Assembly: GCA_030077755.1 (NCBI GenBank)
Contig: JAQJZZ010000011.1
Span: forward strand, 2,666,001-2,730,000
Source of the DNA: Filosporella fistucella
Taxonomy: Eukaryota > Ascomycota > Leotiomycetes > Helotiales
Direction: 5' to 3'
DNA length: 64,000 nucleotides
Position 1 is the stretch's first letter. Each line of letters opens with the position of its first letter. The notes beneath the pieces are model-generated. The model was not told the origin of the DNA. It ran no database searches and worked only from the letters and a program-made list of their open reading frames with translations. Shown here piece by piece: positions 4,145 to 36,900 of the stretch. The position numbers were made by a program, and so were the translations under genes.

Positions 4145-10877
<6,733 letters not shown>

Positions 10878-12464
10878 CTAATTCGAACCTATCAAAGTCA
10901 TCGGCCCAGTCACATCGTCCCCAGCATCCTCATCTTCTGTCTCGTGAACATCATCAAACCTCTGCGAATCACTACTTGAATATGAATTTCCTCGCCCCGT
11001 CGCCTGAACGCACTCATCCACTCTTAATGACAAGAGCTGTGAGAACTCAAAATTGTCTCCCAACTTCATGCCTACAATTTGCCCCAACTCCAAAAGATAG
11101 TCCATCGGCCCGATTTCGAGCGTTGAGACTTGCATCATATATGGACTGACTGATAAAACATCTGCCAGCGTGCAGCCAATATCAGAAACTTTCTCTAGAA
11201 TCCCAATCCCATTTGCTTGAATTGCTTTGGGAGGTAGCAATCGTAGTGCTAGAATGGTGTCTCGAGCAATGATCACTGGATATTGGAAAGACAAACTCTC
11301 AACAGCCGATTTGCTGGAAAGTACCCCGTTGCTGACGCACAGCTTCCAGACTATTGTCTTCAACCACTGTCTACTGACCAGTAGATCTGCCCTCTGGATG
11401 TCCGTTCTTTCGTTGACGTAGGGTATAGAGTATTGCAGAAAATGCTGCAGCTTGGTCAGAAATGGAAGTGCAGCAGGGGGGCCTGGGGACAAATTCCACA
11501 GCGAGATAAATGCGTCACCAAAATTTTGATACAATGCAACCAGGTCCAGGAATCCGGAGAAAATGGTCGACTCGGGGCATTCTTGAACGGTCGGAAGCGC
11601 GATCGTACCTCTGATCGTGAGGGGATGATGCCGTTGGATGGCGTACGCTCTTTCGGTGATACATAGGAGCCAGAATGTTCTGCGACAGCAGGTACTGTAT
11701 TGAATGTCGTCCATTGTTGTATAGGAGGTTTCTTCGTGAAGACGGAGAAGTTGCATTATCGTGATGGCTTCTCGAATGTAGAACCATGCTTTGTTGTGTC
11801 TTTCGAGGCAACAGGAGACCGCAAAGAGGAAGAAGGAGGTGTGCACAGTGTCAAGTGATGGTTCGTCGATATAGTTGTAGAATTTCCTTGCCCGGCTCGC
11901 CTCGTTGATGAGAAAATTTACCAATGGTTTCGAATCGATATGAGTAGCATCTATCGAGGGGCCAGGGCTTGATGGGGATGAAGATTCGGCTTGAAGAGTC
12001 ATGAGTGCACATATGGCCGTCACAAGACTATACTGCGAAGGGGAGTGTTGAATATGTGGCAGACTAGCGGATATCTGATGTCGGTCGACTATTGGCATCA
12101 CAGGATATTTTTGCTCGAAAAATGTATCTAGGCAACTCTGTATCATCCCAGGCGAAAGCAATGGAGACATCTGGAAGCCAGACTCGACCGGTATACCGGA
12201 TATTGGTGACTGAGGAATGCCCAACTGAGGATCACGATTTTGCTTGATGGTTTGAAAATTGAGTCTTGATTCTCCCCACCTTCTTGGCCCCTTTCTTTTT
12301 GGGGGACTGTAACTGCACGGCTGCCAACTCTGGCAATTCGAGCACGGAATTTTGCTATCACATCGTACCTTGCGGGCACGACATTGATCGCATGCTTGCT
12401 TGCCCCTCTTCAAATATTTCCATTGTTCCTGAGGTTGGAAATCGGATTGGGACTGGGTCGCCAT
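10878..12464 (-). CDS. Zn2Cys6 transcription factor
   Basis: Single-exon gene of 528 aa with ATG at 12464-12462. Residues about 24-49 carry the binuclear zinc cluster CDQCRARKVRCDSKIPCSNC plus a sixth Cys five residues later, followed by a basic, Pro-rich linker (PPKRKGPRRWG). The middle region resembles the fungal-specific transcription factor domain (for example RRTFWLLCITERAYAIQRH). The C-terminus is acidic (ETEDEDAGDD), as in activation regions. It is nuclear and presumably binds CGG-type sites. Its position next to the inulinase gene invites the idea that it controls inulin or sucrose use, but that rests on neighbourhood only. A CCCG/CGGG inverted repeat lies about 260 bp upstream. Confidence 0.88.
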   Translation of the reverse strand: MATQSQSDFQPQEQWKYLKRGKQACDQCRARKVRCDSKIPCSNCQSWQPCSYSPPKRKGPRRWGESRLNFQTIKQNRDPQLGIPQSPISGIPVESGFQMSPLLSPGMIQSCLDTFFEQKYPVMPIVDRHQISASLPHIQHSPSQYSLVTAICALMTLQAESSSPSSPGPSIDATHIDSKPLVNFLINEASRARKFYNYIDEPSLDTVHTSFFLFAVSCCLERHNKAWFYIREAITIMQLLRLHEETSYTTMDDIQYSTCCRRTFWLLCITERAYAIQRHHPLTIRGTIALPTVQECPESTIFSGFLDLVALYQNFGDAFISLWNLSPGPPAALPFLTKLQHFLQYSIPYVNERTDIQRADLLVSRQWLKTIVWKLCVSNGVLSSKSAVESLSFQYPVIIARDTILALRLLPPKAIQANGIGILEKVSDIGCTLADVLSVSPYMMQVSTLEIGPMDYLLELGQIVGMKLGDNFEFSQLLSLRVDECVQATGRGNSYSSSDSQRFDDVHETEDEDAGDDVTGPMTLIGSN

Positions 12465-14110: not shown

Positions 14111-14541
14111 TTTAATTAATACTTCTCACGGATATTTGGTATTTTGCTTATTATCTAGCCCGACAAAAGACATTTGTGTTTCGTTGGACCGGAAATGAAA
14201 GTCACATGATTATCACATGATCACGTTTTAGAGAATTTCTTGTCAGACAATACCTAGGGGAAGACATTAAACAGATAAACAATTATCTGATGTGTTTGAC
14301 ATGCTCGAAATATAGCGACCCAATTTATATCGTCAGTATGGCACCGGCCTGCTGTATTCTAGCTTTTAATGTTGGTTAGAGAGTTGCCTGCGTTACTGCA
14401 ATCAAGCGAACGGCGCAGCACTCCTATATGAGAGGATGACTCCGTGAACTTCCAACCTCATTGCCCCTACCTACTCACTTCCATCTATATATCCTACCTT
14501 TTCAGGACTTCTACGCTGTCTGTTCTTACACATCATTTGAG

Positions 14542-15642
14542 ATGGCCCGAACAAAGCAGACTGCCCGCAAATCAACAGGTGGCGTCGCTCCTCGGACGCA
14601 TCTTGCTGGTAGTCTCCAGCCACACTATCATCGTTTAACTCTCTCTCGACTTCTATCGGCACAATATTCAGCATCGGAAGCCCCTTTAGTATCTGATATA
14701 GCATCAACTTCAAATGCTCAAGAGCAAGTGCTGTCCACTCCGGAACTTCTCGTCATTATTCTATCTCAGCTTCCTCACTCCTCGTTACTAAGAGCCAAGT
14801 CTGTCAACAAAACCTGGGCAAATCTATTTGGCAATGTGGAAATCCGTGCTGCTCTATTTGAGGTTCCTAGGCCTAAAGAGTCAGCATTGTACACTGAAAC
14901 ATATTCGGATCTGTTGGCGGACAAACTCTGGACTTGCTGGCCAGTACACTCGAAAGAAGAACTAGAGGAAGTGGAGTCGGAAGAAAGTTCAGATGAGGTA
15001 GAGACTCTTTTTGAGAGGCGTGATTGGACATCTATCAATGAAGAACTTCTTCTTAAAGGTGGATCTAAACACCAGCGAAAGGAGATAAAGACAGTTGAAC
15101 TGCAACTGGAAAACTACACAGACCATAGTCTCCCATGGCAATGGAGGCATCTCCTTCTCAGTCAGCCAGCAGTAGAATACCTAGAGCTTGTCCAGCAGAT
15201 CGACAGACGCGGGGGAAGCACATTAGAATTCCGAGCTACTATCCATCGTCCTGGTGGTGTACGGATGGGGTTTCTTTATGATGCAGTGAGATACTGGCAT
15301 GAGATTGAAAGAAGCTCTGTTGAGCTGCTTTGGGGCAGGAAGACTGGTGACGTTACCAAGAAGTCAATATACTATATTGAAGGTTCTAGCTTTGAGAAGA
15401 ATGAAGGGAGATATTGCGTGACTATTTTGGGCAAGACCAGTGTAGGATGTGGCCAATACGGGGGGCTCACGTATGAGAGTTCTGGGCACGGTACCTGGAA
15501 TCCACTAAAGCCAGAGTTTCGTTTTATCAAAAGCGGTGATGAAGATGTGGAGTTTTCAATGTTGGGACCAAAAAGTATAAGCTATGATATGAGCATCATT
15601 TTTGCTTCCAGGGCGGAAGAAGAAGAAATTGGAGATGTATAG
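14542..15642 (+). CDS. F-box protein with a histone H3-like N-terminal tail
   Basis: Single-exon 366-aa protein. The open frame extends 27 codons further upstream, but only by a TTG codon. The first ATG is 14542, with G at -3 and G at +4. It begins MARTKQTARKSTGG, identical to histone H3 from the initiator Met through Gly13, then continues V-APR-TH-LAG where H3 has K-APR-KQ-LAS. H3 positions R2, K4, R8, K9, S10, T11 and R17 are kept; K14 and K18 are lost. Residues about 62-95 form an F-box (TPELLVIILSQLPHSSLLRAK...NKTWANLF), the Skp1-binding module of SCF ubiquitin ligases. An acidic/Ser-rich patch follows (about 133-147), then a region of about 200 residues of unknown fold. Predicted role: a substrate adaptor whose tail mimics the H3 substrate of chromatin readers or writers. 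The function is inference; the similarity is plainly visible. Confidence 0.85.
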   Translation: MARTKQTARKSTGGVAPRTHLAGSLQPHYHRLTLSRLLSAQYSASEAPLVSDIASTSNAQEQVLSTPELLVIILSQLPHSSLLRAKSVNKTWANLFGNVEIRAALFEVPRPKESALYTETYSDLLADKLWTCWPVHSKEELEEVESEESSDEVETLFERRDWTSINEELLLKGGSKHQRKEIKTVELQLENYTDHSLPWQWRHLLLSQPAVEYLELVQQIDRRGGSTLEFRATIHRPGGVRMGFLYDAVRYWHEIERSSVELLWGRKTGDVTKKSIYYIEGSSFEKNEGRYCVTILGKTSVGCGQYGGLTYESSGHGTWNPLKPEFRFIKSGDEDVEFSMLGPKSISYDMSIIFASRAEEEEIGDV

Positions 15643-16707: not shown

Positions 16708-17307
16708 ATGACTTCCGAAAGAGAGTATTCAATTGGAGCTCATCCTCAGGACCAGGAAATGCTCAAGAGCATTTTGGAACAGGTCGATACTGATTGGTAT
16801 GTCGGAATCAAACCACATGATACCAATCTTCCAACCTATGAGTGGGTTGCGAAAGCATTGACAGAGCGGAAGAAAGCACTTGCGGTTGCCACCAATCCAC
16901 ATGCTTCTATCCCTATTCAAGTCTTTCATATCGTCGAAGAACTCAGAAGAGACACCAATATGTACAGCCGATCGCGACTCTACAGCCACCCGGCTTCCAA
17001 TAACACCATCGAACGTTCCACAGCAAATCCAGCTGGAAGATGGACGAGATACGAACGTTGGAAGGAAGCGCAGCGAGCTTCATTCAGGCCGTTGGAGCAA
17101 TTCGAAGAAACTGCTCTTCTCAATCTACACGGCCAATATGGAGGAGACCACGATGCTATGGCCGAGAAGATGAATTTCCTGGCTCTGACTCGTGGTTGGT
17201 GGGAAGGTATTGAGGGTGAACCTCGTGTGTACAATGCAAATATTGTGGAGGAGAAACTATATAAGTTGTTGGAACGGAGGGCTAAATGGGCGGCGGAGAA
17301 CAAGTAG
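16708..17307 (+). CDS. Small protein of unknown function, tandem paralog A
   Basis: A 199-aa frame from an ATG at 16708. No signal peptide or membrane segment is seen. It is clearly related to the gene at 18122: both carry LP[TS]Y-x-WVA-x-[AS]L near residues 45-60, an I-x-ELR[RK] motif, an NP[AP]G[RK]W motif followed by a Trp, FE-[DE]-x-AL-x-N-[LM]-[HN]G, and a closing TR-x-[GW]W block. The repeated Trp residues and the shared motifs show real constraint. I do not recognise the family; it looks lineage-restricted. The charged C-terminal 40 residues (VEEKLYKLLERRAKW) are probably helical. Cytoplasmic or nuclear location is likely by default. Confidence 0.75.
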   Translation: MTSEREYSIGAHPQDQEMLKSILEQVDTDWYVGIKPHDTNLPTYEWVAKALTERKKALAVATNPHASIPIQVFHIVEELRRDTNMYSRSRLYSHPASNNTIERSTANPAGRWTRYERWKEAQRASFRPLEQFEETALLNLHGQYGGDHDAMAEKMNFLALTRGWWEGIEGEPRVYNANIVEEKLYKLLERRAKWAAENK

Positions 17308-18121: not shown

Positions 18122-18664
18122 ATGGAACATTTGGCACAATCTCCGACTCGATTTCGCTTGGGTGAGGACATAATACTCAAAAAGCTTATATCGGAAGTTA
18201 ATAAGGCATTATACATTAGTCTCACACTGCATAGCGGCCCCAGGCTTCCAAGTTATGCATGGGTAGCAGAAAGTTTAAACAAAAGGATTGGGATTACGCC
18301 ACCTACTTGTACTCTCCTCCTGCCTTGGACTCAGTTGGAAGCAGTCAATATCATCGGGGAGCTCAGAAAACGTCCTGAATTCTATGGCCGGTATCCAGTT
18401 CCCAATAATAAGTTACCCATTGCATATGACCCTGTCCCACATTCTAAAAAGAATCCACCTGGAAAATGGAGCACACGGCCAAATTCGCAGAATCTGTGGG
18501 CCCACTTCGAAGATGAGGCTCTCCGAAATATGAATGGTAAAGAATCGAAAGGCGTCGTAGGCAAGATGGCTCTCCTGTCTGAGACCCGGGATGGGTGGGG
18601 CGCTTCGGGATCCCTAACTTTACACCGAGAAGGTATGATACTAAGAAAATTGAAGATAGAATGA
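18122..18664 (+). CDS. Small protein of unknown function, tandem paralog B
   Basis: A 180-aa frame from an ATG at 18122, homologous to the gene at 16708 by the shared motifs LPSYAWVAESL, NIIGELRKR, NPPGKW, FEDEALRNMNG and TRDGWG. It lacks the charged C-terminal helix of paralog A and has a shorter tail. The pair arose by tandem duplication that included the promoter, judging from the conserved upstream block. Sequence divergence is large, so the duplication is old or the genes change fast. Function unknown; no domain recognised. Confidence 0.72.
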   Translation: MEHLAQSPTRFRLGEDIILKKLISEVNKALYISLTLHSGPRLPSYAWVAESLNKRIGITPPTCTLLLPWTQLEAVNIIGELRKRPEFYGRYPVPNNKLPIAYDPVPHSKKNPPGKWSTRPNSQNLWAHFEDEALRNMNGKESKGVVGKMALLSETRDGWGASGSLTLHREGMILRKLKIE

Positions 18665-24955: not shown

Positions 24956-27900
24956 CTAATACCGGCTGCCTAATTCTCGCAAGAAACTTTCATCAATAGG
25001 AGGGCAAGTATTCCTCGTTTCATAACCACCAACTGCCTTCAAAGCCTTCATCGTTTCCGACTGATCAAGAGCAAACATAACATGTCCAGTTTCACAAACG
25101 CTCTTCATCGCCTCCCACCTGACGATATCCGCCTCGGTCTTTGCTTTGGCTCTCAAAAGTGCCAACCATTCTTTTAGAGGGAGAAGTTCGCCTTTTTTGT
25201 CATCAGTGCGAATGCGTGACATCAAAGATGGAAGATTGGCCAGATTCAATGGACTAGGGTTCCCGACATGGTAGATAGTGCTCTTGCGTTTTGGATCGTT
25301 CAATTTTTGTTGTCGGATCTCTTCATTGGTTGAGATGTCCCGCATGACATTGGCGAGATAATTGACTGGAATGAAATCGATAGCAAATGGTGGGATGCTA
25401 GAAGAGTAGTCAAGGTTGGGGACGCTTCCGAGATCGATCATCTCCAAGATGATGCGTCGAACGAATTCGTCATCTGGTGGAGGGACGTTGGTCAAGGTAC
25501 TCCCAGATACCGCGGAAGCGCGGAAGATATTGACGTTGAAACCACGTTCTGCTGCTCTAGCTAGAAGCATCTCAGATACCCATCGAGCTTTGAAGTATAT
25601 GAGCTCGGAAACGTTTGAAGGTTGGAAGTGATCAGGTCCCGACTCCATTATGTCGACATTTTCGAGGGTCATTTTCGCTGCTGGATGAGATTGCAAGTGC
25701 GGAACACTCCATGTTGATAGATAATGAACTATTGTACCTTTTCCAATGGCAGCTAACTCGATGAGATCGAGAGTTGCACCTGAGTGTGAGCGTCTCAGGC
25801 TGTTGTAGTCTTTTAGTAAAGACATCTGACCACCAAGATGGTAAATTGCTTGAATTGAGCGGCCAAGGGAGCCAAAAGCTGTGCTATCAAGACCGAATTG
25901 GGGTTCAGTGAAACTGGCTGGGACGAGAACAACATTTTTGCGCAAATTGGCTTCGTTCACTTCATCATCCAGGAGTTTGTGGCTCTGTAGATTCTGGAGA
26001 AGGTCGGAGAAAGAAACCGGCTTTTCGCTACCAAGGATATGGATACGCTTTATGGGCTTGGAGGATAACAATGCTGCAAACAAGTGGATGCCAATGAAAG
26101 ACTCGACGCCTGTCATCAGTATATCTGTAATTATGGAGGGATTTGAGGCCAATGGTTTGTGGGAGAGCATGTATCGCTTGTCGTTTGGCAGAAGTGCCTC
26201 AAGAGCCCAGTCAACCTGCTCTTTCTCGCTGTCCACGACATCGAGAGCAGCGGCGGTATTTGAGGTGACTTGGAAACCGCAAATTTTGTGCGCGATGATA
26301 CTGGGTGTTGGACCCTTGAACAGCTCGGGCAAAGTAGGTACTTTCTTGAAATTACGTTTGAGCTTTCCTTGTAAACGCAGCAAGAGAATGCTTTGGCCTC
26401 CAAGCTCGAAGAAATTGTCGTTGGGCCCTATTTCCTGCTCTTTCCGAAGTTTCAATGTCTCTCGAAAAAATTGAGTGACTGATTCTAGGACCTGATTTTG
26501 GAATTTGTCGTTCGAATCCGGTTCTTGACTGGGTGAATTCGTTGCGGGGTAGGTCAGTTGAAGGTCTCGAGAGAGCAAATTTTGCCGGTCCACCTTGCGT
26601 CCGATTGTAACGGGGAGTTCGCCCAGGAATTGATAACCATTTGGCAGCATGTATGGATTAAGGTGCACACCAATCCGCTGGTGCAAAGTGGTAACAAAAT
26701 TGACTTGTTCTTTAGTTCCCGGCATCTCGTTACAAACAATGAATGCGATAAGTTGTCGTTCGTCTGTGTAGCTTACAGATTTATCAAGAGAGCGTGCGAC
26801 AATTGAAATGTCCACAAGCTTTGGGCCTGAAATTTTCGAAGCCTCGAGATAAATGCGATGCTCGACCTCACCTAGATCGACACGAAAGCCCCGAAGCTTG
26901 ATCTGTTTGTCGCCCGCAATCCGGCCATGGAACTCGAGTTGACCATCTGGCATGAATCGACCTTTGTCGCCGGTGCGAAATAATCTGCCCCACCCACGAG
27001 TGGAATCTTCCTGGGAGCAGAATGGGTCATTGATGAAAGAGACGGCGTTGGCTTCTGGTCTGTTCAAGTATCCAGCGCCAACTTGAGCACCACCCACACA
27101 TATTTCTCCCACAACCGATCTTGGAACCGGATTCATTTGCGCGTCGACGATGTAGTGGCGACAATTTGCCATAGGGTATCCGATTGGAATATTAACATCT
27201 CCAGTGTCGAAAGAAGAAATTTTATGAATGCATGTTTGAACAACAAGTTCGCTGGGGCTCCATGTATTGAGAATTGTCGCTGTGGTTCCAAGCTTGCGGA
27301 ATTTGTCGACTAAGCGGGCTGAAAGACGCTCGCCAGCGAAGAAAGCGAGACGATGGTTAAAGCTTAGGCTAATAGCTTCAGCTGATTGCTCTATGAGCAA
27401 TGCGAAATGAGTAGGTGTGAAATAGGTGACTGTAACTCCTGCCTTTTGTATGAAGATCGCCAGTAGAGAAGGGTCGTTTCGAACAGTAGTAGATGCTACA
27501 CAAACAGTTGCGCCACATGTTAAAGCAGAAAATATTTGTACAATTGAAAGATCAAAGCTCATGGATGACTGCTGAAGAAATTTGTCGCCCGAAGTGAAAG
27601 AATAGTCATGATGCATTGTCGAGAGCATCTGGTGTGTGTTGGCTAAATGGTATCAGTCAGTATAACACCGGGAACGTGTGAGATACTACTAACCCATGGT
27701 TAACACGACGCCTTTTGGGGTACCTGTAGAGCCCTATGAATGAGAATTAGCGATGCCATATACCACGGCCTGTGAGTCTCACAGAAGTATAGACTGTGTA
27801 GAACGGGCCATCTGAGGACGTTTCCTCGTACCTTGGCTTTTCTTCACCGCTCTTTGCAATTGAGATTGGGAGCAACTGGGGTGGAACTTTCATTGTTGAA

Positions 27901-30900
27901 GCCATGACGGCTCCAACATTCTCAAGACCAGCATCCACCAAAATGAGCTTGGCAGCCGAATCCGATGCCATAAAGCTCAATCGTTGAGTAGCAAATCCTG
28001 GATCTAGGAACAGATAGCCACAGCCGTGAAAGAGAACACCAACCATAGCAATGATGGCATTGCATCCTGGATGTGCTAGGATACCAACAGATGTATTGGG
28101 TGCGATATTGACCAAACTTCCAGCGACTCTCTGTGCCTGGTCAACGAGATCCTTATAGGAGACTGTTTCTCCTTCTGCATTCTCAATAGCCACGGCGTTA
28201 GGTGATATTTGAGCGGCGGCAATGATTCTTTCTACAACAGTGGTGTTGGACCAGGTGTTGTTTGTGAATCCCAAATTCCAGAAGTTGGTCTTCAAGTCCT
28301 GGAGCTCGTTCTCGCTGGCCATTTTGACCTCGGAGATTTCTTGGCAGTGGTCTTGGATCAAACTAGTCAAGAAAGTCAAGAAATTATCGAAGAATCTATC
28401 CATATCCGTGTCGCCGTAAAGAGTCTTTGAGAATTCCAAACGAAGATCTAGGCCTCGCTCAGGATCTTCTAAGGCTTCCAGAGCAATTTCACAGGCTGTT
28501 GGAATATCGTGATTAACGACCTTGTTGATCTCGAAATCCTGGGTCCTGAAGCGCGGCATTGCACCATGCATTTGATAGTTGACGATGATTTGACTGATGG
28601 GGAAAGTGCTGGTAGTTTTTGGTACGTTGACAGCGTCGACGATCAAGTCAAATGGGATTTGGCTATGCTTGATGGCCTCGATGGTAGCAGTCTTGGTACT
28701 TTCAAGAAGCTCCTCGAAGCTAGCATTTAGGTCCTGGTTCAACCGAATTGGGATCAAGTTGACAAAAAACCCGAGAACGTCTTCCAGGTCGGCCCGGGGT
28801 CTGTTGCCATCTGTGACCAAGATGGTGACATCTTCCTCTTCGGTGTATCTATATATGAATGCGCGGAAAGCTGCGAGCAAGAATTGGAATGAGGTAGTGC
28901 CAATGCGGGTACAAACTCTTCTCAGACGTTTGAGCATCTGCAGACGCATTGTCTTGGTGATTATACTTCTTGAATTATCTGCGTGCTTCGGACGATCGCA
29001 TTGGGCGAATGGGAGAGTCTTAGAAGTTGGGTTTATACCTTGCAACTTCTCCTTCCAGAATTCGGTCTCAGGTTTGAGCTTCTCACTCTGGAGATGATTC
29101 TCATACCAGATGGCAAAATCAATATATGAGATACTTGGGAGAGGAATGGTTTCAAGACTCTTGCCCGATTTGATGGCGTCATAAAGTGCGATAATCTGCT
29201 CATAAGCCGCCTTCGAAGATCCACGATCAATGGCAATGTGGTGGAACACCACAACGAAAGCGAAGCGATCATCACCAAGCTTGAAAATAGCAGACCGCAT
29301 AACTTCACCATTTTCGATATCCAGTGGTGTACTTTGAAGACTGGCGGTAGCATGCTTGAGAGATGTCATTGGGTCTTTGCGGGCCGTTAGATCCTCGAAG
29401 GTAAGTCTTGAATCAAAGTCGTCAATTGGTAGCTGTTCGGCAAAATCGTCCCCTTCGAAGTATGACGTTCTGTAAATCTCATTTCGCTTTTTGAACTCGT
29501 CCAGAGCAGCTTTGAACACTTGCACATCTGGTGTGCCCTTCATGTGAGACTCAATAGCCAAATTAAGAGCAGATTTGTCCTCGGCCATCTGGTGTGAGAA
29601 CCACATTCTGCGTTGAAATGTGCTCATTGGGATGTTGCTTGGTCGAGAAGCGGCAATAACATCGAAATCAGAAGACGATATTGAGCGTGCAGATTTCTCG
29701 GATTTAGAGTTTCCAGAAGGATCTGATTCAGCAGACGAGAGCTTGTCTTCTACACCGTCGACGTCGAGGACGATGAGTCCTGCTGCCTTTGTAATCAAAG
29801 CACTGATAGACTTTGAGGAAAGAATGTCAAAAAGAGCAATTTCGACGTTGATAGACTTCGAGAACCATTTCCTAAACTCGACTGCGACAATTGAGTCGAG
29901 GCCATACATTGAAAGTGGATTAGCTGGCTGAATTGTGTCGGCAACGACACCGAGGACAGCTGCAACCTTCTCAATGAATGCAGACGACAGAACTTGAATG
30001 CGTTCCTCAATATTAACGGCTGCCTGAAGGTTGGCGTTCAAAGAGTTACTGCCCTTAGAAGCATTGGAACCGCCATCGAGATCATGGTTTGAGTAGAGAT
30101 TACGGAAGAGAGATCTTGCGTGCCAATAAACATCTTTGCGCTTGAGTTGTACTCCCGTGGTCGTCGCAGTCAGGTCAACTCCGCGATCATTCAAGACGGT
30201 CCCAGAGCTATTAACAACTGCTTCTTCAATTTGGTAAAGCAGTTCTTGTTCGTTGACAGAGTCAGAACCCATTTTGGTAAGCCATTGGAGCATAGCTTCG
30301 TTTTCGGAAACCAATCCTACACCAATGATCATACCACAGTCCATTGAACTGGCCTCGAGGCCAAGACCACGGCGATAGCGAACAAGCGCATCAAGATATG
30401 TGTTTGCGGCAGCATAGTTCGTCTGACCCATGGAACCAATCTGGGAGGAGACAGAGGAGAAGGGGGTGAAGAAGTCAAGCTTCAGATGAAGAGTGGCTCT
30501 ATGTAAGTTCCAGCCACCTTGAACTTTTGAGTGCACACTATGCAAAGTTAGTCTACACGATCCACAAAATATTTACATAAACTTTTGAAGTTGGCATCAA
30601 CGTATACTGGAGTTCTGGAGTAAATGGCATGCGATTGGAGGGTTAACATACCAATTCTTCCACTGCTGCACGGACATTGTGCTCAATGGGGCATCTTGAA
30701 GAACGACTGCGGCATGGAAAACACCAGACAGACTGTTTCCAATGCTATTAACACAATTCTGAACAGCTGCAAAGTCAGTGACATCAACGGCAAAGACGGT
30801 GACTTTGACATCACGAGCTTCAAGCCATGCAACGGTGCTCTTCGCCTCATCTCGAGCAGACCCAGATCTGGACATGAAGGCCAATTTGCGGGCTCCTTTG

Positions 30901-33900
30901 CGAACCATCCATTGCGCCATTGAGCGGCCGAGACCTCCCAACCCTCCACAAAGAAGATAAGTTTTGGCAGGGCTGAATAGAGTCGTGTTGCGGTATACTG
31001 GCTGAGAAACAAGGACCATGTCATTGACGTCTGGCACAAGCACCACCTTGCCAGTATGTTTGCCCATCTGCAAAAGACGGAATGCTTTTTCTACCTGGGA
31101 GTAAGGAAGCTCTATGACAGTTTGAGGAGTCTTAACTGTTCCATTTTCCAGGAGAGCGTACGAGTCCTTGATGAGATGATGCAAAAGAGGCTTGTTATGC
31201 TCCCACATCGTAATAAGATCAAGAGATGCAAATGAGACACTTCTTCGGAATGGCTCCATATCAATCTTGGAATTCTCATGAATATCGCGCTTTCCAATCT
31301 CAACGAAGCGGCCAAAGCGTGCAATGCAGTTCCAGGTGGCGTGCAAGAGGTCCCCGGCAAGACTGTTGAGGATGACATCTACACCATTGCCGTTTGTCAG
31401 ATTGAGAACATCTTTGACAAATGAAGAGTCTCGAGACGAGAAGATGTGGTCATCGGTCAATCCGTATGTTGATTTGAGCAAGTCGCGTTTTGCTTGCGAT
31501 CCACAGGTTGCGATAACTTCTGCTCCCATCATTTGTGCTATCTGAACAGCCATTTGACCTACGCCTCCAGCAGCGGCGTGGATCAAAACCTTCTCACCAG
31601 GCTGGAGACGTGCCACATCTCGAAGAGCGTAGTAAGCGGTGGTCATGACGAGAGTAAACGCTGCGGCAGTGGAGAATGGCATGTCCTTAATCTTGTAGCA
31701 AACAGAAGCCGGATTGCGAACAACAGAACGGTGAGCTCCTTGTCCAGGTCGGAAAGCAACCACTCGGTCCCCGACTTGGAAGTCGGCGCTTGAAACTTTA
31801 CTTCCAACACGACGTACGATTCCACTGCATTCATCGCCAAGTTTATAATCGTCAATGAGTCCGATAGAGGCAGCGATATCTCTGAAGTTGACTGCTGAAG
31901 CTTTCACGTCGATCTCAAGCTCATCATCAGCGAGCTCTGTGTCGACAATCTCTTCATCAACACAGAATGCCAAAGTCTCTAATAGACCAACTTTGCCAAT
32001 CTTGAGGATTAGAGGCTGTCCAGCGGCAAATGGCTGCAGAGTTGTCTCTCCCTTGGCATTCTCTGGCAACTTGGTATTTAGCTTATCATCGGCTTCGATT
32101 CTTGGAATGAGAAGTGCGCCATTGACAATAGCAATCTCATCCTCTCTGAGCTTGCTGTCAAGGATTGCAAGAACACTGCGTGAAACATCGACGTTCTGGG
32201 CATCCTCTGCCACATCAAGGGTGATTAATTTTAGCTTCTCATTCTCATTGCGGGCCACTCTAGCCATGCCAATGATCATGGCCTGCGCAGGATTCTTCGT
32301 TTCAATGCAGGCACCGTTCAGGATCCACACAATATTCTTATTTTCAGAGGTAAGCAGGTTCTGGACCGCTTCGAATTGCTGACCCTCACTAGCTTGGTCC
32401 TCGAAAAAGAGGTCCACGCCCATGCTGGCAAGGACAAGAACATTTGCAGTCGATGGCACAGTGTGAGTCAAGGCATTGAAAGGCATTGTCTCAACAGCAC
32501 CACCGTAGGTTGCCTTAATCATTGCAGCTAAGTCTTCGGCTTTTGCTGACACGACTTGTGGCATGACAAGTGTCAAGGGCTTAGCAACCTCTTTCTTGGG
32601 GGTTTCTCGGTAAGCACTGAACAGGGTGTTTTTGAAGATGACGTCCATATCTAGGCCACCATAATGCACCCCATCGGCGATAATTGTGCCTTCAGGTTTG
32701 AGGTATGATTTGAGATCAATGGACACTTCCTTACTGAGAATGATCAAATCGAACGAAGCAGCAGCTGGTTCTGTGATGTCGATTAAGGATGAATAAGCCC
32801 TTTGCAGAGGTTCGATGTCACCAACGGGTTCCTCCGAGCCAGAGAACAAGGTGACCTTTTGGAAACGGCGACGATCTCCTGGGAGACCGCCAAGAAGTCG
32901 AAGCATCTCCGAGGTATATCCCACGTCGGGAGTGACGTGCAAAATCTTGGTATTTGGATATTGATGCGCGAAAATATCCACAACGCCTGCAATGTCCTTC
33001 AGAGCAGAAAGCTGGGTAGTACCAGCAAGATTGTCAAATGCCACCTGCCACCTTGTGCGAAAGAATAGAGATCGTGCGACACTGTCGGGACCATTGCCAC
33101 CCAATGCCGTTGCTTCGAGTCCCTTGATTTCGATAAGAACTTGGCTGCAGTCAGCCGATCTCACTGTAACATCAGTGATAGCAAGGCGAGCACCAGGGAG
33201 AGTAGTTTCGGTACACGCCCAAAGACTGACATCTTCCGAGCCAGCTGTGAGGTTTTGGAAGGCGCTTGAGATTTTCATAGACTTCAGGAAAGTTGGTACG
33301 AATGGCCCGTCTAATGGGACGCCCATTAGAGACTCGATGCCTGCGAAGAATGGATGGAAAGATGCATCGAGGAAACTAGGGTGAACGACGCAGCGATCGT
33401 TCTCGGGGGTCAAGATATGTGCATTTGGTCTTAACGAGATAGGAGCCATGGCGAAGCCGCTGCCGCTATCAACATCTCCAGTAATGAGTTGGAAATCTTC
33501 ACCGTATCCAAGTCCAATTTCAGCAAGATGTTCGTAATATGCGTGAATAGCTGTAGATCTGTTGCTTCGTTTTGTCAAGGCGACCAAGGAGGGTGCAGGC
33601 TGATTTGTCTCAACGGGCCCAACTTCCCCAGCCTCGACAGAGATGAGACCGTAACAATGCTCATTGACATTTCCATTATCACCATACGAATTGATGACAA
33701 ATCTGTACCAAGCGTCCGAAGTTGTTTTTGCGGAATTTGCAACCGGTTGCATCTCAAATAGAACTTCAGTCCCCTGATCACTATCGGAAACCATGAGAGC
33801 AGATTTGATGGCAATGTCACGAAGAGAAATTGCCTTTATGTTTTTCGGGCAACTATCCAAGCGAATCGCTGCTTCGACTGCCATAGTGAGATATCCTGCA

Positions 33901-36900
33901 GCTGGAAACACGACTTTACCCTCAATCATATGGTGCGGAAGCCATGATAATTCACGGGGGCGAAGGAATTGACGCCATCGTGGATGTTTCTCAATATGCC
34001 CTGGCATTGGAGCACCAAGAATCGAATGGCGAAATTTGCGCTGACGGTAGCTCTTGACCAATCTCGTCTCAGCCCAGTATTTGTTGTGGTCCCAAGCATA
34101 GCTGGGAAGGCTGATAATTTGACCTGCTGGAGCTCTGCAGACCGAACCTTGTGAGTCAAGGAACAAGTTGCTATTGACTGCTTCGAGGTCTACCGGATAA
34201 CCCATGGCATACAACTGTCCAACACAAGTGAGCAAACCCTCAAAATCAGGAGCGCCACGAGCGATCGTAGCCAAGTAGGGAATATCAAGCTTCAATGGTT
34301 GCGTGGTTTGTCTTGAAGGCCCTTTCAATGCTGGGTGCGGTCCGACTTCGATCAGAACATCAATTGCTTGTTCCTCCTCCTCGTTGATCAAGATACCAGT
34401 CAAGGCATCGAAATACTTTACTTGGCTGACAAGATTTGCGGTGTAATATGATCCATCCATGATTTTCCAATTTGCAGGTCGAGCGGTAACACTGGAAAAC
34501 ATGCGGCATGTAGAAGGACGAGGCTTAACGCTACTCAGGAGTCGCGTCAATTCCGGACCATAGGGCGCCATGTGGTGGGAGTGGTATGCACGCTCTACTG
34601 CAAGTCTGCGAACGAAGATCTTTCTTTCGTCGAAACTTTCTTTCATCTTCAAAATCTCAGGCTCATCTCCTGAAAGTGTAAGGCCAGAGGGGCTGTTGAG
34701 AGCGGCAATGACAACCTTGCCTTTGTATGGTTCTAGCTCTAGTTTCGCTTCTGCTTCGTTGATTCCCACAGCGATCATGGCACCGGGAATTGTGACCTTA
34801 TCGGCGGGGTCAGTCGTGAGTGCACATCCTCTGTAAAACGCACAGGCAATGGCATCTCTGAATGTAAGAATGCCTGCGGCATAAGAAGCTGGGATTTCTC
34901 CAGCGCTGTGACCACAGACAGCAGTTGGTTCAACTCCCCAGGCACGAAGCAAATCAATGAGACAGATTTGAACGATAATTGTGAGCGCAGAAGAGAATTC
35001 GATGCCGTTCACACGCGATTCCTCTTTACTCTTCAGTAGTTCAGTCAGGGCTGACCATTCCGGTGCCTGCTCCAGCGTTTGCAGGAGGGCATCGCATTTC
35101 TGAACCGTTTGGCGGAACATGGGTATCTTCTCAATGAGCTCACGGCCCATGGCGAACCACTGCGCACCTTGACCAGTGAAGACATAACCGATTCTTGGTA
35201 CGGACTTGCTGGCCCTGGTCCAAGGTACAGGTACCATACCCGCCTCACTGCCACTTCCCAGCTTTGTAATAACCGACTCGGAATCTTTGCCAATAACAAA
35301 GGAACGGTATTGGTGTTTGGAGATATTGGGCTTACTAAGGCTGATAGCCACATCACTAGCTTCTGGATATGGTGATTGTTCAAGGAAAGCCGAAAGCTTG
35401 TTCTTGAGAATCTTGCCGGCTTTCTCTGTATGTGAAGTAAGCGGTAGGAGATAAGGTCGACCTGCAACCATAGCAGTATGAACTGGTTCCAGAGTGACGA
35501 CTTCTTTGGTGACCACTGGCTTTGTATACCCCTCGAGGATGGCATGTGCATTAGTTCCTCCGTAACCAAATGAGTTGACACTTGCTCGTCTGACACCATT
35601 CACTGGAGCCCAGTCCATGGCTTCAGTGGGAACGATAATCTTCCATTTTTCAAACTCAATTTTCGGGTTAGGTGTGCTGAAGAGCATGTTGGGCAGGATT
35701 TTGCCAGCCTCAAGAGATAGGGTAGTTTTGATGATACTTGCAAGGCCTGATGCACCTTCCAAATGTCCGATGTTTGTTTTTACTGAGCCAATATAGAGAG
35801 GCTGGTCACGATTTGGGGCGAATACTGCTCCGATTGCGCGTGTCTCCCGTGGATCTCCAGCTTGGGTGCCAGTCCCATGTGCCTCAAAGTATCCGGTTTC
35901 GTTCGTACTGAGCCCACTAGCCTTATAAACTCTGCGAATCAGAGCCTCTTGGGCCACAGAGTTTGGCATGGTGATGCCCTCTTTTGTGCCATCGTGATTG
36001 CAGCCAGTTCCTCGAATGACGGCTCTGATGTTGTTGCCGTCCATCTCTGCCTGGGACTTTCGCTTCAAAATGACGGCGCAGATTCCCTCTCCTCGAACAT
36101 AACCCTTTCCATCCGCATCAAAAGCACGGCATCGTCCGTCGACTGAGAGAAAACCAAGGTCTGTCATCGTTGTGTAAATTGTAGGGTCGAAGTGAAGGGA
36201 TGACCCAACGACGATCGAGATATCAGCCTCGCCGTTTTTGATGGACTGTACACCCATGTGCAGACCGACCAGAGAAGAGGAACAGGCCGTATCAAGGGTG
36301 ACACTTGGGCCGTGTAAGTTGTAAAAGTAAGAAATACGATTGGCGAGAATGGATGCTCCAGTGCCAGTCACACAATATTTGGGATAGTGCTCAAGATCTT
36401 TGAAAATCATGTCCCTGTAGTCCATCGTGAAACTTCCGCAGAACACGGATGTTTGAGTACCGCTGATTTCTTCCAGTGTTATGCCAGCTAGAGTTGTGTT
36501 AGCCTTGGAACACTTCAATGATAGCGAGTCCTACCATTTTCTAGACCCTCGTAGACAACTTCGAGGAGGAGGCGCTGTTGGGGGTCGATGGATTCTGCTT
36601 CCTTTCCAGAAATCTGAAAAAACTCAGAATCAAATTCACTGATATCATCGTCGAGAAAATATCCGTATCTGGCATTAGTCTAATTCATGTTAGTCGGCAT
36701 ACTTACACAATCGATGTGGTTTAACATACTGTTCCCTTGTTGGTGCCATCGGGGTGGTAGAAGGCATCCACGTTGAATCTGTTTTTAGGGATCTTTGTAC
36801 GAATATCTTTTTGTTCGATGATGTTTTTCCACAATTGCTCAGGGTTCTTGGCTCCTGGCAATCGGCATGCCATACCAATAATGGCGGGGTTCTCAGATGG

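Follow-up and report, generated by a model that had tools for sequence, protein, structure and literature searches.

We find that a 366-residue F-box protein of the leotiomycete fungus Filosporella fistucella is a candidate N-terminal mimic of histone H3, the first 14 residues of its extreme N-terminus (MARTKQTARKSTGGVAPRTHLAG) being identical to those of H3 and the tail being retained in many of its relatives. Judging from site rates in two protein families, the H3 N-terminus is conserved on its non-lysine face, and not in the K9 context. The gene lies in a window of 64,000 nucleotides (the whole stretch of DNA analysed here), and the coordinates of its features are summarised in Table 1.

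Table 1 Features of the H3-tailed F-box gene, in positions of the window
Feature	Position	Strand	Basis
H3-tail F-box protein, 366 aa, intronless frame	14542..15642	+	homologs P0002-P0057
M+ARTKQTAR codons (H3 1-8), slowly evolving mimic core	14542..14568	+	site rates, family A mean 0.155
KSTGGVAPRTHLAG codons (H3 9-22 equivalent)	14569..14610	+	H3 comparison, site rates
Linker, aa 24-56, fast-evolving, low-confidence	14611..14709	+	mean rate 1.84
F-box, aa 67-101	14740..14844	+	PF00646 E 3.3e-5, above cut-off
Conserved C-terminal domain, about aa 205-350	15154..15591	+	

The H3-like N-terminus and the protein that carries it

The codons at 14542-14610 read MARTKQTARKSTGG-VAPRTHLAG. With the genome's own H3 gene as reference, the original prediction that the first 14 residues are identical to H3 is borne out (14/14), while its alignment of the next nine with H3 holds at five of nine positions (A15, P16, R17, L20 and A21); the remaining differences (K14V, K18T, Q19H and S22G) include the loss of K14 and K18 that it had described. 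The tail also appears to occupy the true N-terminus, as had been proposed: in the open frame no in-frame ATG precedes the one at 14542, and the sole earlier start-like codon is a TTG at 14461. Across the 45.8-Mb genome, DNA capable of encoding ARTKQTAR occurs in exactly two places, the H3 gene and this frame, and a backwards control pattern has no occurrences in the same genome. There is no sign of a histone fold in a Pfam scan of the 366-residue protein, from which histone families are absent up to E 1, and among the best 60 of 131 PDB sequence matches the best stretch falls inside profile positions 1-32. On sequence grounds, the H3-tail match is real and beyond chance; indeed, the observation is stronger than the original prediction could know, because the tail is conserved.

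The proposed junction of the tail with an F-box is likewise supported, PF00646 scoring 24.1 bits in this protein against a curated cut-off of 20.5. Four other members were scanned, of which P0058 (20.9 bits) and P0050 (23.4 bits) exceed the cut-off and P0019 (19.5 bits) and P0047 (16 bits) fall below it. In the predicted structure, the mean pLDDT of 10-residue blocks is 37-53 across residues 21-60, and the F-box region is also modelled with low confidence (blocks of 44-56); the C-terminal domain is confidently modelled, its fold being unassigned.

The surroundings of the gene include a Zn2Cys6 transcription factor upstream on the other strand (10878-12464, minus strand), and two small neighbouring frames on the plus strand (16708-17307 and 18122-18664) that share 26% identity (E 4e-14) as relatives and have no Pfam match at E 0.001. 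Long frames at 24956-36518 (minus strand) make up a polyketide-synthase/peptide-synthetase-like cluster, within which 24956-27628 contains AMP-binding, PP-binding and male-sterility (NAD-binding) domains, and 30597-36518 reads like a polyketide synthase. Additionally, a single open frame at 4145-8026 (minus strand) matches the N-terminal model of glycosyl hydrolase family 32 in three stretches and the C-terminal model in two, as if two units had been joined. Elsewhere in the genome, a second H3-like gene in two pieces (loci L008 and L010; G000 C9:3290976-3291325, minus strand) is 66-72% identical to H3, and might encode an H3 variant, centromeric or otherwise.

Distribution of the tail in two F-box families

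Within the genome, the only other match to this protein (protein search, E up to 10) is an F-box-like paralogue in two segments on contig C9, the frame of which begins MAKNSEIP and lacks the tail. A full-length protein search returned 57 relatives, and we define family A as this protein together with P0002-P0057. The tail was scored as present where 8 or more of the 13 initial H3 letters match (Met counted). By this measure it is found, at the same place, in 32 of the 57 family A members, this protein included; MARTKQTAR is exact in 25 members and MARTKQTARKSTGG in 12. Hosts named among the relatives include Cadophora, Bisporella, Pseudogymnoascus, Glarea, Oidiodendron, Stipitochalara, Venustampulla, Scytalidium, Xylogone, Zarea, Aphanocladium and Lecanicillium, and of the two hosts from this search for which class was looked up, Cadophora gregata belongs to the Leotiomycetes and Aphanocladium album to the Sordariomycetes.

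The weakest relative in the full-length search, P0058 (26-28% identity), also begins MARTKQTARKSTGG. A second search using residues 28-306 of P0058, i.e. a query free of the tail, yielded 53 proteins including P0058 itself, the closest 26 of which we designate family B, the other 27 being more distant. Family B is a distant F-box family in which 18 of the 26 members carry the tail (MARTKQTAR is exact in 12), and its hosts include Neoarthrinium, Xylaria, Astrocystis, Pestalotiopsis, Sarocladium and the Dothideomycete Periconia. None of the 27 more distant proteins has the tail, and even the top three agree with it at no more than 5 to 7 of the 13 letters. Over both families, tail hosts include Leotiomycetes, Sordariomycetes and one Dothideomycete. 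The original prediction had left the spread of the pairing to a search of this kind, and its contrary case, in which all relatives lack the tail, fails because tail and F-box are conserved together across genera.

Not all models carry the tail, as 25 of the 57 in family A and 8 of the 26 in family B score without it. However, P0025, P0028 and P0029 begin MIPDTV, a stretch that P0008 has after its tail, and since this start is apparently the linker Met of tail-bearing sisters, several tail-less models look truncated; the comparison suggests that some are truncated gene models. P0057, scored as tail-less, has a tail with just A1 missing, and a coherent group of five (P0032, P0037, P0038, P0039 and P0042) may be truly tail-less. 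Furthermore, the related family B proteins P0193, P0197 (Sarocladium) and P0194, which were scored as tails, carry Glu in place of A1 and Asp in place of A7, indicating that the tail can decay. An unrooted tree from which the tail was excluded sets each of families A and B and a tail-less group C on one side of a branch, a split consistent with either one ancestral tail followed by loss, or two gains.

A further protein, P0060 (406 aa), contains four degenerate H3-tail copies in a row with acidic spacers, and has no Pfam match.

Constraint along the tail

Site rates were computed on trees built from the protein body alone. In family A, rates are low at A1 (0.11), R2 (0.11), T3 (0.12), Q5 (0.10), T6 (0.17), A7 (0.13) and R8 (0.11), with K4 intermediate at 0.44, and ARTKQTAR has the 7th lowest rate of 359 eight-residue windows. 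Within the H3 9-22 equivalent, S10 (0.10), T11 (0.12), A15 (0.13), P16 (0.31), R17 (0.15) and L20 (0.29) are slow and K9 (1.03), G12 (1.28) and positions 14 (2.53), 18 (2.52) and 19 (1.38) are fast, the rates of G13 and A21 being 0.26 and 0.81. K9 is loose, and positions 14 and 18 change about as fast as the linker (family A mean 1.84; F-box region 0.38). Mean pairwise identity among the 31 tail rows of family A is 0.95 for MARTKQTAR, 0.74 for positions 10-13 and 0.65 for 14-23, the corresponding values for the linker, the F-box and residues 201-310 being 0.27, 0.78 and 0.67, respectively.

Position rates in the two families have a rank correlation of 0.87 over 21 positions, with R2, T3, Q5, T6, R8, S10 and T11 slow in both. 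In family B, K9 (2.62) and positions 14 (2.68) and 18 (2.39) are again fast, and R8 (0.12), S10 (0.14) and T11 (0.17) slow. Family B is looser than family A at A1 (0.38) and A7 (0.42), and is also loose at G12 (2.01), G13 (1.00), A15 (1.97) and R17 (1.29), so the constrained part is shorter there.

Counts over all 50 tails give a similar picture. Ala occupies position 1 in 46, and in 46 the protein model starts at the tail Met (29/32 in family A, 17/18 in family B). K4 is kept in 43 and replaced by R, N or T in the other seven; K9 is present in 29 (21/32 and 8/18 in families A and B, respectively), K14 in 6 and K18 in 4, P0019 being the one protein with all four. The original prediction had stressed the K4 and K9 contexts equally, an equal weighting that is not supported: K4 is mostly kept, but the emphasis on K9 does not hold across the families and we drop it. 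Lysines 9, 14 and 18 may be read as positions of relaxed constraint, and not of strict removal. With K9 loose, 14 and 18 unconstrained and R2, T3, Q5, T6, R8, S10 and T11 slow, H3K9-specific readers or writers appear unlikely targets. Rather, slow evolution at A1-R8 and S10-T11, together with loose lysines 9, 14 and 18, points to a tail partner that would grip the former and ignore those lysines.

Possible functions and their precedents

Our preferred, though still tentative, reading is that the protein is an SCF-type substrate receptor, the H3 decoy of which docks an H3-tail-binding chromatin protein that is then ubiquitylated. Proteins starting Met-Ala usually lose their Met. The initiator Met would probably be removed here (Ala being next), so that a flexible linker would present a free A-R-T-K-Q-T-A-R terminus. 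This terminus would dock into the chromatin protein mainly via A1, R2, T3, Q5, T6, A7, R8, S10 and T11, and the state of lysines 9, 14 and 18 would matter little to binding. Recruitment of Skp1-Cul1 by the F-box would then lead to ubiquitylation of the captured protein or of its complex. As partner, an H3K4me0-type PHD finger and an LSD1-type demethylase complex are the leading candidates, and the genome contains candidate components of such a system (one Skp1 match, and 16 PHD, 4 SWIRM and 2 BIR-domain segments). A free Ala end, a fast-evolving linker of low model confidence, an F-box and a modelled C-terminal domain fit an SCF receptor with H3 bait, and the decoy reading gains from the exact tail joined to an F-box, from the occurrence of the tail in two families and from the lack of conservation of the family A linker. 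It is weakened by the tail-less models, the Glu1/Asp7 variants, the changes at K4, the low model confidence of the F-box region, and the F-box scores below the cut-off in two other members. Moreover, the substrate binder could instead be the C-terminal domain, which counts against the tail as bait. Recruitment, titration or degradation of a putative chromatin-enzyme partner, as originally suggested, is plausible.

The cases of PAF15 with UHRF1 and of SNAG domains with LSD1 indicate that such H3-like peptides can work. SNAG sequences resemble H3 just loosely, and are borne by transcription repressors, not by an F-box protein. In the available text of the source, the SNAG domains of GFI1 and SNAI1 fill the LSD1 substrate cleft as H3 mimics, a likeness to the proposed role of the fungal tail in that an N-terminal peptide poses as the H3 tail to an enzyme that acts on it (PMC5896174). 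According to the available portion of the PAF15 report, the PHD finger of UHRF1 has nearly the same affinity for the H3-like PAF15 N-terminus (2.2 uM) as for H3 (1.5 uM), and the K5A change in PAF15 has little effect on this binding (PMC7060239). As described there, PAF15 is similarly a non-histone protein of the ubiquitin pathway with an H3-like extreme N-terminus, but it is the substrate of the ligase, whereas the present tail is carried by a presumed ligase adaptor (PMC7060239). The fungal protein further differs in that its H3 match is exact over 14 residues and that it has no PAF domain match: the PAF15 family (PF15715) is not listed for it in a Pfam scan up to E 1, and reaches 15 bits in relative P0019 against a cut-off of 23.4. 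Fungal SCF F-box proteins (Aspergillus fumigatus Fbx15 and the A. nidulans set) share the F-box as Skp1-Cul1 adaptor, and the title of the Fbx15 paper assigns to that protein control of nuclear co-repressor localisation, yet the accessible parts of these sources do not mention an H3 tail (PMC5029927, PMC9744329). Among the literature matches listed, we found no description of an H3 tail combined with an F-box.

Several alternative hypotheses may explain the tail. An unlikely one is that it is a modification switch, in which H3 kinases or arginine methyltransferases modify T3, S10, T11, R2, R8 or R17 and thereby control the ligase. These residues have low rates in family A and are almost invariant among its 32 tails (R2, R8 and S10 in all 32, T3 and R17 in 31, T11 in 30), yet Q5, A7 and A15, which have no such modification, are equally fixed there, and R17 is found in just 8 of the 18 family B tails.

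We also think it improbable that the tail is a decoy without degradation, i.e. a pseudo-substrate in the H3 site of a chromatin enzyme, the F-box serving only turnover or localisation. For this, SNAG peptides and LSD1 provide a precedent in the text available to us (PMC5896174), and positions 9, 14 and 18, at which H3 enzymes usually act, rank with the loosest in both families. However, these proteins also show strong conservation of the F-box region, which suggests that the F-box is in use, and K4 is mostly retained.

It is very unlikely that the tail is merely a basic nuclear-localisation or importin-binding segment; the segment is basic and H3 tails bind importins, but selection runs in the reverse direction, with 9, 14 and 18 loose and T3, Q5, T6, S10 and T11 slow in both families. 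Finally, there is a negligible chance of a recent H3 copy, gene conversion or an assembly chimera. In its favour are the exact match across 14 residues and the presence on this contig, C10, of the H3 gene as well (minus strand, start near 1474156), but it is contradicted by synonymous differences at 11 of the 18 degenerate codons at shared residues, by the absence from the F-box gene of the H3 intron after the K9 codon, and by recurrence of the tail in many other genera. By nucleotide comparison with the H3 gene, as the original prediction had advised, the tail is no recent H3 copy.

Returning to a ubiquitin-ligase receptor that uses its tail as bait, it is possible, if doubtful, that the Pezizomycotina possess an old class of such receptors, in which a modification-blind H3-tail bait sends a chromatin regulator to SCF. 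The bait would keep the non-lysine face of H3 1-11 while lysines 9, 14 and 18 drift, the regulator would be captured whatever its usual mark preference, and the protein would act as a natural bifunctional degrader of chromatin machinery, either passed down to both F-box families or gained on two occasions. To our knowledge, most known histone mimics are short and approximate; here, a long and exact H3 match is conserved on an apparent E3 adaptor across three fungal classes. The natural tail variants amount to a mutational scan of the H3-tail residues that matter to the partner, and, if that partner is degraded, these fungi would be able to deplete a chromatin regulator by a dedicated route, via a false histone.
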